Virus record (IMG/VR): IMGVR_UViG_3300031841_002686
Coordinates: 1 to 22,545 of that record
Source: a virus
Strand: one strand, 5' to 3'
DNA length: 22,545 nucleotides
Notes under the pieces: model-generated
Database searches by the model: none
What the model was told of the DNA's origin: nothing
The model's input: the letters and a program-made list of their open reading frames with translations, nothing else
Shown: positions 14,918-17,958 of the stretch, in pieces
How the letters are laid out: the number at the start of each line of letters is the position of its first letter
Numbering within the stretch: position 1 is the stretch's first letter
Position numbers and translations under genes: made by a program

Positions 14918-15565
14918 TCACGGCGTATAGAAGATTACTTCTTCTGGGTGCTTCTGAGCGTCTAGCGCAATAGCATCGGATAGATACTTGTCCGCAATAG
15001 AAAAATACTCAGGAGCCGATGTCCCGCCTGTTTCCCCTCTTTCCCTGGCTAACAATGCAATTGCTAAATGAATAACTGGCATAGACGGAATCGCCATGTC
15101 GTCATCATTAGCAGACAGGTCAGCCTCTCGCTTTACGCAGTTAAAACGGATTGTGTACGCTTTGTCGGGCGTTGGATAGATATCAATTTGGGTATCACCA
15201 TTGCTGTCTACGCCATTGTACGTGTAGTAAGTAGGCGCACTCGTACGTGGCTCGGAGATAAGATAAGCCTCGTCAAAAAACGTAGCCGTCTTATACTCCA
15301 TAAACAGGTTTGACGTATCGTTTATGACGTTTAACGCCTTAATCCTGTTTTGGCTGCCGGTAAGCACGTAGTTAAACACGTCGCTGCTAGTTGTAATCGT
15401 TAGCGTTGTGCGCAGTGCAGACCAATCCCAAGCATCTTCCACCATGCGTTTAGCATCGTTTACAAAGTCACCTACCATTTTTGCGTAAGTGCTGCCTTGC
15501 ACAGAAGCGACTTCTTCCTCTCGAAGCCGCCTTAACACATTATTTACTAAGTTCAGATAAGTCAT
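14918..15565 (-). CDS. tail adaptor (tail tubular A, T7 gp11-like), 215 aa
   Basis: The sequence [20 protein letters not shown], then VGDFVNDAKRMVEDAWDWSALRTT, is characteristic of the gp11/gp4-type head-to-tail adaptors: a helical N-terminus, the EDAWDWSALR segment that contacts the portal, then a beta domain (YYTYNGVDSNGDTQIDIYPTPD) and a C-terminal helix. The length is close to T7 gp11 (196 aa). It begins in a TAATG overlap at 15563-15567 with AGGAAC as ribosome site. Twelve copies would join portal and nozzle. Confidence 0.8.
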   Translation of the reverse strand: MTYLNLVNNVLRRLREEEVASVQGSTYAKMVGDFVNDAKRMVEDAWDWSALRTTLTITTSSDVFNYVLTGSQNRIKALNVINDTSNLFMEYKTATFFDEAYLISEPRTSAPTYYTYNGVDSNGDTQIDIYPTPDKAYTIRFNCVKREADLSANDDDMAIPSMPVIHLAIALLARERGETGGTSAPEYFSIADKYLSDAIALDAQKHPEEVIFYTP

Positions 15566-17958
15566 TATTTGTTCCTATCTACAATCATCTTGGTAAGCAA
15601 ACCGCCCATCATTTGGTTTGCCGATTGTGGTTGCGGCAATACTAAGGATTGAACTTGTGGTGCCTGATAGTTAAGCCGTGACATGTAAGGCGTAAACATG
15701 CCTCTGCCGCCACCGCCGCCACCGCCGCCACCACCGCCTTCTTCTGGCTCTGGCTCTCCGCCGCCCGAAGGAACACATTCGCCAGTTTCTGGGTCTCGAA
15801 CAAAGCCTTCAGGACATTCTTCTTCAGGCTCTGGTTCTGGCTCAGGGCTTGGGCAGGGTGTGCTTGGATCTGTTGCTGTGCCATCAGGGCATTCAGAGCA
15901 AAGCGGCCAATCTAATGCACCATTCTCGCAAGTTTCTGGTTCTGGCTCAGGGCCTGGCTCATCAGCTATCCACGGATAACACTTACCATCTTTGCCTCTA
16001 ACAAACCCTCTAGGACACGGCTCTTCTTGATCCTCTTCTCCATCACCAGGCCCCGGCCCTGGCCCCGGCCCCGGAGCAGGCTCTGGCTCTGGTTCTGGTT
16101 CTGGTTCTGGTTCTGGCTCTGGTTCAGGCTCGGGCTCAGGCTCAGGCTCAGGCTCATCCTCTCTAAATGGGTAGCACCTGCCATCTTTGCCTCTAACAAA
16201 TCCTTTAGGGCATTGCACTTCTTCTTCACCATCATCAGGCCCGCCACCGTTATCTGGAGGAGCTGGCTCAGGCTCAGGGGCTGACTCAGGTTCAGGTTCA
16301 GGCTCGGGCTCAGGCTCCGGTTCCGGTTCCGGTTCCGGTTCTGGCTCCGGTTCTGGCTCCGGTTCAGGTTCCGGTTCAGGTTCTGGCTGAGAAACAATAC
16401 AGTTTCCGTCGGCATCATAAACGCCATCTTCGCCATCTTCTGTTCTGCAAGGATCGTCTTCTCTACGATCTATAGGCGGATCATCACATTCGCCAAGAAC
16501 TTCGTTATATACCCGATCATCTCCACAATCTATTACTTGCTCAACACACTCTAAACTTTCATTCGGAGTAAATCCGGGCAAACATCCGCCACAGTTACTA
16601 GGCCCAGTAGTTGGGCTGCCTTGCCTATGCGCTCTATTTTGTTCTCTACACTCTTCCGCTGTAGGGCCGGTATCTTCCCATTCAGGCTCTGGTTCCGGCT
16701 CGGGCTCCGACTCGGGCTCCGGCTCGGGTTCGGGTTCGGGTTCGGGTTCGGGTTCTGGCTCGGGTTCGGGTTCGGGTTCTGGAGCAGGCGCTTCTATGCA
16801 GTCGCCATTTTCATCAATTTTCCCAGGCTTATCATCATCAGTGGTGCATTCCGAACCTATAGGCGCTTTCTTTTCTGGTTCGCACCTTCCTGTTTGTTCA
16901 GAGAAAAAATACCCTTCTTTACATGGCCCGCAGCTTCCATCTTCATTAACGGTAGCATTAGGATCATTGCATTCTTGTGGTTGCTGCTGATCTGCTTGAG
17001 CACAATACTTTTCGTTGTCTTTTCTAAACTCATTATCTTCACAGCTTGCTGCAAGCAAAAATGGGTTGTCTATTTCTAATTCTTCTCTAACTCTATTAGC
17101 AACAAGAACTGAAAGCCAGGGGCCTAAAATATTTCTTAACTCTTCATCTAAATCGCCAATAGTCCAAGACCCGGCAGTTAAATCTCCCCATGCTTCCTTT
17201 ACAGCGTTTACTGCATCTTCTACTTGCCCTTCTATCCATGCTCCGGGGTCATCAAGAATGTCGCTAATACTTCCGCCAATTTCTTCAACTTTTTTAATAA
17301 TATCTCGAAGAGTGACTCCAGCAATTCCTGGGGGCATAGGAATATCTAAATCAATAAAATTCTCAAGCCATTCAAAAGTTATACAATCTTGCCAACCCGG
17401 ATAATCTTGCCCTGTCTCAGGATCGTATGATCTTCCCGACCATTTATCTTTTCCACAATCTCGGGAAACGCCAATGGCAGCTCTTGCCATGTCCATAATT
17501 GTGTCATAAACATCTTGAGGGGATGTTGGTATTGAGCTTCTTACTTCATTAAAAATATCTTTAACAACGTCAAAAACATCTTCAGTTATTTCTGCGCCTT
17601 CTTCTTGAAGATCAGAAAAAATTTGATCCCAATTAATTTCTGTTTCTTCGCTTTCGTCTTCTTCATTTTCTTGAGAAGCCAACCATTCTTCATAGCCGCC
17701 AGCATCGTTAATTTGGCTAATAAAAGCCGCCATTTGCTGAAGAGCCTCAATAGTTACTCCTGTTGCTAAAGAAATGTCAAAAGGGGCATCTGGATTCATC
17801 CTAATAGAGTTAGCCTCTAGGATTTCCTCCATAGTAGGATCAGCCCAAATAGCTCCTAGTTCAGATTGGCCTATGCCGCCTAACATGCTTTCAAGGCGCG
17901 ACCTAAGGGCATCTTCTTGTTCAAGATCTTCAAATTCTGGAGGTACGTAAATAGACAT
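15565..17958 (-). CDS. (Pro-Glu)n/Cys-module protein, about 797 aa, unknown function
   Basis: Residues 1 to about 300 form an acidic, mainly helical domain (start [20 protein letters not shown]). There follow at least eight short Cys-pair modules, the clearest being [16 protein letters not shown] and [16 protein letters not shown] (about residues 585-665), [16 protein letters not shown] near 717-732, [16 protein letters not shown] near 346-361 and [15 protein letters not shown] near 461-475. They are separated by three long PEPEPE tracts, a PGPG tract and a terminal Gly run. Each module would form a disulfide-closed loop in an oxidising compartment, so the protein is probably outside the cytoplasm or on the virion. 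The C-terminus is [20 protein letters not shown] plus a helix. No signal peptide is seen. It lies between holin-like and adaptor genes. Candidates are a stalk or adhesin on the virion, or a periplasm-spanning protein. Not identifiable further. Confidence 0.7.
16078..16155 (-). repeat. PE tract 3 (CCA-GAA and CCT-GAG hexamers)
   Basis: Hexamers encoding Pro-Glu are dominated by CCAGAA, followed by a CCTGAG block. Adjacent to a PGPG-coding run at about 16050-16075. Confidence 0.8.
16262..16389 (-). repeat. PE tract 2 (GAA-CCG hexamers)
   Basis: The longest run of Pro-Glu hexamers. The core uses GAACCG repeatedly, with mixed CCTGAG/CCTGAA units at both ends. Confidence 0.8.
16683..16790 (-). 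repeat. PE tract 1 (CCC-GAA hexamers)
   Basis: Pro-Glu hexamers are dominated by CCCGAA and CCCGAG. Proline codon choice differs from the other two tracts, implying separate expansions. Confidence 0.8.

Follow-up and report, generated by a model that had tools for sequence, protein, structure and literature searches.

The fibres of marine phages are reported to contain repeat stretches without sequence similarity and tips that vary between strains (PMC3909814), and prophage fibres to have modular stalks of the collagen and coiled-coil kind (PMC3368898). Host attachment is also aided by elongated decoration proteins, such as T4 Hoc, phi29 gp8.5, and SPP1 gp12 (review, PMC7602432). The protein described here, referred to as the rod, is encoded by a short-tailed virus of bacteria (IMG/VR virus record IMGVR_UViG_3300031841_002686), the window being the whole stretch of 22,545 bases that was analysed. 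Like the metaviromic-island fibres of marine podoviruses and pelagiphages (PMC3909814), the rod combines an unconserved repeat stalk with one hypervariable end and is encoded in a structural operon; however, those fibres keep their N-terminus and vary their C-terminus, whereas the rod keeps its C-terminus, and there is no domain common to both. The swapping of stalk segments seen in the E. coli side tail fibres EPclA and EPclB (PMC3368898) recurs in the rod family, some members of which are collagen-like, but the rod of the window itself has PE rods and Cys loops instead of collagen, and neither PfN nor PfC. Hoc, gp8.5, and gp12 (PMC7602432) are elongated, are displayed on particles, and help cell contact, as is proposed for the rod, which differs from them in having no Ig-like, beta-tulip, or collagen-spike domain.

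The rod gene and its neighbours in the window are the following:

13384..14910, minus strand: nozzle-like structural protein, 508 aa
14918..15565, minus strand: adaptor (PF24175, SU10_adaptor), its start overlapping the rod stop by one base
15565..17958, minus strand: gene of the rod, a protein of 797 aa with a net charge of -157
17962..18306, minus strand: small membrane-type protein, 114 aa (phrog_2524), directly upstream of the rod
18306..18503, minus strand: 65-aa protein with a coiled coil and a C-terminal hydrophobic segment, XhlA-like by eye and matching a PHROG holin only weakly (E 0.08)
18982..21486, minus strand: tail fibre with a Peptidase_S74 chaperone (PF13884), used as the yardstick for variation

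The reading frame of the rod is real: it starts with ATG and encodes three (PE)n tracts and 28 cysteines, and it recurs in contig L001 as a copy identical over 797 aa and in contig L002 as one with 86% identity over the protein and 91% in the N-terminal 324 aa. A signal peptide is absent, as the first-pass annotation had claimed, the best 15-residue window in the first 35 residues averaging 0.05 on the Kyte-Doolittle scale. There is likewise no TM segment, since hydropathy on the same scale, averaged over 19 residues, peaks at 1.27 in the whole protein, and no lipobox or lipoprotein signal is seen at the N-terminus as read from the translation. Beside the nozzle gene, a 77-aa protein ending in ...TIDGGTY (13154-13387) is kept through much of the group, and the coiled, fibre-like protein encoded upstream of the S74 fibre ends in a similar way, with T(I/V)DGGTY.

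From its N- to its C-terminus, the rod is composed of the following parts:

17662..17928, minus strand: N-terminal helical module (residues 11-99), common to 16 family proteins in differing combinations
17032..17607, minus strand: D1 domain (residues 118-309, ~190 aa), helical in a weak model
15775..17043, minus strand: Cys-loop zone (residues 306-728, or 306-740 if counted up to the poly-Gly run), with 13 Cys pairs besides the pair 168/192 in D1
16711..16782, minus strand: (PE)12 tract (residues 393-416)
16285..16386, minus strand: (PE)17 tract (residues 525-558)
16168..16212, minus strand: Cys module, 15 aa, from the translation
16078..16155, minus strand: (EP)13 tract (residues 602-627)
16045..16074, minus strand: (PG)5 run (residues 629-638), read from the translation
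15973..16017, minus strand: Cys module, 15 aa, from the translation
15769..15816, minus strand: Cys module, 16 aa, from the translation
15706..15738, minus strand: poly-Gly linker of 11 Gly (residues 741-751)
15568..15705, minus strand: conserved C-terminal motif, the proposed docking peptide (residues 752-797, 46 aa)

Residues 1-310 comprise two further domains that the first-pass annotation had left out, and the two cysteines of D1, at 168 and 192, are invariant. The poly-Gly run, taken at first to be terminal, precedes the conserved C-terminus. Three PE tracts and the PG run break up the Cys-loop zone, and the motif CPxGFVRxxxxGxCxP occurs three times in the rod, starting at residues 583, 648, and 715. 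PE dipeptides number 61, against a mean of 19.7 and a maximum of 35 in 2000 shuffles; the tracts are uninterrupted and are written in mixed synonymous codons (CCA/CCT/CCG/CCC and GAA/GAG), which argues that the peptide is kept and that the tracts are not only an artefact of DNA repeats.

The cysteines follow a regular pattern across the family. The 62 complete rods hold zero (29 rods), two (2 rods), or 20-80 cysteines (31 rods) and never an odd number, so that the pairing of cysteines in a disulfide-rich extracellular protein is matched by even counts in 62 of 62 rods, 29 of these counts being zero. In 20 mutually dissimilar Cys-rich rods the counts are all even, which has a chance of about 1e-6 if parity is random, although the duplication of a two-Cys module also yields even numbers. 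Counted from the N-terminus, the intervals between cysteines 1 and 2, 3 and 4, and so on have a median length of 12 residues (5-95% range, 9-20), and none of the 556 such loop intervals in the family holds a PE tract, whereas the intervals 2-3, 4-5, and so on extend from 1 to 467 residues and hold 78 of the 78 PE tracts. The 28 cysteines of the rod in the window thereby make 14 loops. This pattern supports, as a sequence signature, the prediction of sequential two-Cys loops strung on the rods as disulfide beads, and the disulfide-type modules on rigid linkers that had been suggested earlier are borne out at that level by the even counts and by PE tracts that never interrupt a loop.

A search of IMG/VR with the adaptor returned 509 relatives; the 80 that ranked best were retrieved, and they uncovered a large family with the same gene slot. 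In the fetched relatives, the gene directly 5' of the adaptor nearly always encodes a large, very acidic, low-complexity protein, the body of which differs from one relative to another. The rod thus belongs to the regular gene set of these phages and is not, as initially thought, unusual for a phage late operon. The spacers used by the family include (PE)n, (PD)n, (PVET)n, (TD)n, VDLPS repeats, an E/K/A-rich helix, and collagen-like GxDGxDG; of 35 relatives compared with Pfam, 3 match Collagen, and L113 has a Collagen match below the cut-off. A more distant, 1340-aa relative in the rod gene slot (L175, 3982-8004) is of extreme low complexity, over 150 of its residues forming a (TGT)n run beside another run rich in A/S/T, and two others (L036, 321-4106; L041, 302-3562) carry several hundred residues of an ERxKDxEEA-type repeat that is likely a single alpha-helix. 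Common to all is a C-terminal motif of ~45 aa, Gly-rich at first and then roughly GMF.PF..GI.YQ.P..Q....P..DY..EL..LI.R...GM (68 distinct ends), the profile of which matches no other ORF among the loci.

The gene order surveyed across the family confirmed the position of the rod between a holin-type gene and the adaptor. The rod lies directly upstream of an SU10-type adaptor gene in 66 of 67 complete, motif-bearing relatives, and 58 of the 59 motif-bearing rods with upstream sequence directly follow a gene that matches one of three holin-type profiles or is like such a gene; the 59th, in L085, is preceded by a 125-aa protein that is by eye similar to the holin-type gene of L086. All 77 matches to the holin-type profiles are followed by a gene of at least 300 aa, in 76 cases within 10 nt. 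It has to be noted that the holin-type profiles were built from the rod family, which makes the linkage count partly circular, and that this does not apply to the relocation of the pair: holin and rod genes stay together downstream of the nozzle gene in L113, L131, L135, L136, L144, and L145. The adjacency of rod and adaptor is looser, with an extra gene between the two in L085, L152, and L156. The holin-type genes are of three sequence-unrelated kinds, one of them with PF11351; the 114-aa protein of the window is itself no Pfam holin, and related phages have a 132-aa GTA_holin_3TM protein (PF11351) in its place. A DUF7936 protein is also encoded in the rod neighbourhood, and extra genes lie between it and the holin-type gene in L044 (1564-2983), L045 (2654-4073), L090 (136-1627), and L112 (2-826); those of L044, L045, and L090 have apparent signal peptides, the L112 gene is cut at its start, and it is possible that these are lysis or envelope genes.

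The two ends of the rod differ in how they vary, as seen in 1861 pairs from the 62 complete rods. Over the first 120 aa, rod identity shows no correlation with adaptor identity (Spearman 0.00), and over the last 50 aa a weak one (0.28). There are 49 pairs with an N-terminus below 30% and a C-terminus above 75% identity, and 6 pairs with an N-terminus above 70% and a C-terminus below 45%. Adaptors that are 97-100% identical, and rod C-termini that are 92-98% identical, can accompany unrelated rod N-termini (20-25%), as in the pairs L077/L081 (adaptor 100%, C-terminus 92%, N-terminus 25%) and L090/L098 (98%, 98%, and 21%, respectively). In the ten loci where the S74 fibre could be read, its first 60 aa have a median identity of 78% and its last 250 aa one of 22%, and the first 120 aa of the rods in the same loci one of 20%. 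The N-terminus of the rod is therefore as variable as the receptor-binding end of the S74 fibre, with reversed polarity. Part of the conservation of the C-terminus could be linkage, given that it abuts the adaptor gene. The whole of the rod before the C-terminal motif is a mosaic. Domains combine freely, D1 being found in the Cys-rich class and a D1-related stretch in Cys-free proteins, and domains of a second type (D2, D3) occur in other rods or alongside D1.

Literature searches yielded no description of the rod family, which appears to be new to the literature, and the whole rod has no match in PHROGs or INPHARED, in agreement with its being called undescribed in the first-pass annotation. 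INPHARED likewise gave no match for the N-terminal/D1 part of a relative, a Cys-free relative, the adaptor, or a distant adaptor, so that neither rod nor adaptor is seen in an isolate; Pfam and NCBIfam gave low-complexity matches to the rod only, and sequence searches of the PDB low complexity or helical noise only. Models of D1 from two alignments are helical and of low confidence (pLDDT 69 and 64) and gave no usable match with Foldseek (PDB, BFVD) or VIA-align, so that neither a known nor a new fold follows. The matches of the rod to PARP, TonB, SslE, ClfB, and other families reflect low complexity. The PE tracts had been likened to TonB, the proline-rich periplasm-spanning region of which is, as in the rod, a proline-rich, alternating charged repeat; however, the NCBIfam TonB match covers the PE tract alone (residues 389-452) and lies far below the cut-off, and the rod has neither an N-terminal TM anchor nor the TonB C-terminal domain, so that the TonB comparison and a TonB-like periplasmic protein were both discarded. 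Spanins (Rz/Rz1) and lysis-cassette proteins are also encoded beside a holin, but the rod is several times larger and hypervariable and has no TM segment by hydropathy and no lipobox, and a spanin was rejected. An endolysin was rejected, no catalytic domain being found in Pfam and the M15 peptidase of related genomes being encoded elsewhere, by the terminase. Nor does the rod show the tested hallmarks of a canonical tail fibre (its polarity is the opposite one, the S74 fibre of the same genomes having the usual one, and its sequence matches no fibre or adhesin domain that is known), a collagen-like phage fibre (G-X-Y repeats are absent from the rod of the window), and a Hoc-type decoration protein (no Ig-type Pfam match, and a D1 model that is helical at low confidence).

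As for the wider genome, the early region encodes NinB, a borderline NinG, an AAA ATPase, and a metallophosphoesterase (1663-2886) with an apparent N-terminal stretch resembling sigma-70 region 4 (weak, E 0.0015). Related genomes encode a DNA polymerase A, a DnaB-type helicase, an M15 endolysin (PF08291) beside the terminase, and a B12-type ribonucleotide reductase, seen in L122 (5162-6883; PF21995) and L124 (6386-8258), where the gene is apparently split into two frames; the nozzle gene of L124 (675-2202) is broken into two overlapping frames of 399 and 134 aa, probably because of an error in sequencing or assembly. L002 has a capsid protein with distant relatives in freshwater cyanopodoviruses (A-4L, Pf-WMP3) and pelagiphages, and the nozzle protein has only partial matches (23-38%) to HMO-2011-type pelagi- and roseophages and a few Vibrio and Pseudoalteromonas phages. 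The only hints of a host are distant relatives in a MAG of the Sphingobacteriales and in a genome contig of Candidatus Kapaibacterium, matches too weak for naming one; from the names of the relatives, the origin would be aquatic and probably marine.

The best explanation of the observed architecture, conserved C-terminus, mosaic N-terminus, Cys pairing pattern, and gene linkage, which we consider to have about an even chance of being right, is that the rod is an appendage of the virion that is docked by its C-terminus, points outward, and has a tip that can be swapped. As a part of the virion, the rod would be docked to a conserved component of the tail or head by its conserved C-terminal peptide, with the poly-Gly run as a flexible link, and its long, acidic, extended body would hold the variable N-terminal tip away from the particle, where the tip may touch the host surface. 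The PE tracts would act as stiff spacers and the Cys loops as small disulfide-stabilised beads, presumably oxidised outside the cell, and recombination would swap the types of tip and spacer, with the docking end staying as it is. The appendage is favoured because the N-terminus varies at the level of a fibre and the C-terminal motif is unique to the family. It is also consistent with the even Cys counts and the confinement of the PE tracts to the stretches between loops, with the place of the gene in the structural operon, where it overlaps the adaptor gene, with the published marine and prophage fibres cited above, and with spacers that change in type, to collagen-like in some members, with the extended low-complexity design kept. 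What speaks against it is that the phage already has an S74 fibre, that the polarity is the reverse of that of usual tail fibres, that the holin-type gene is kept beside the rod more strictly than the adaptor, and that half of the family is without cysteines.

Both hypotheses offered in the first-pass annotation, a virion surface stalk and a periplasm-reaching protein, survive, the former favoured by the fibre-like mosaic variation and the latter left with the invariant holin linkage. As a lysis partner of the holin, which we regard as unlikely, the signal-less rod would exit through the holin lesions, become disulfide-bonded once in the periplasm, and help in disrupting or spanning the envelope. 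The unbroken linkage to holin-type genes (59 of 59 rods with upstream sequence, L085 by eye), the joint relocation of the pair downstream of the nozzle gene in six loci, and the endolysins (GH108, M15) found right after a PF11351-type holin in several isolate phages would fit such a role; however, two of the three kinds of holin-type genes are holins by position only, the rod has no enzymatic domain, lipobox, or TM segment, the endolysin of the related genomes sits by the terminase, and a role in lysis does not account for one end varying as much as a fibre. Fibre genes, moreover, often adjoin holins, as with gp17 and gp17.5 of T7, which weighs against the lysis partner. A rather unlikely reading has the two genes travelling as one holin-linked unit and the rod, made in the cytoplasm, leaving through the holin lesion and acting in the envelope, where any stiff spacer (PE, collagen, charged helix, or TGT repeat) would serve, as only reach and rigidity would matter, and the exchangeable tip would have to match the host.

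Two further explanations place the rod inside the particle or outside it altogether. It is very unlikely that the rod is an internal protein of the ejection or scaffold type, which would be carried in the head and be injected so as to span the periplasm: its gene is in the structural operon, its length would suit the crossing, some family members have Gly/Ala-rich segments, and one of them weakly matches a family of internal virion proteins (E 0.0017), but the nozzle gene is already followed by genes for three candidate ejection proteins, a DNA-filled head is not where many Cys loops and a large negative charge would be expected, and the variation of the rod is far above that expected of ejection proteins. 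Highly improbable is a free factor that is released at lysis, where it might stick to cells or debris, for instance, or keep the particles dispersed, and is not part of the virion; it would agree with a protein that has no signal peptide, is very acidic, is likely very soluble, and has an adhesin-like architecture, but it leaves the conserved C-terminal peptide and the place beside the adaptor unexplained.

A large uncultured phage group, more than 500 contig stretches of which are matched by the adaptor alone, thus carries a rod-type gene that is absent from the protein-family libraries searched; the tip of its product matches receptor-binding proteins in how fast it varies. If the rod is, as the appendage model would have it, an arm for host contact, the prediction of host range from S74 fibres alone would miss a second determinant. 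The rod family also offers a natural experiment on molecular rods that can replace one another, as unrelated repeats fill one gene slot, and its linkage to the holin-type gene raises the testable question of whether the two genes have a shared role.
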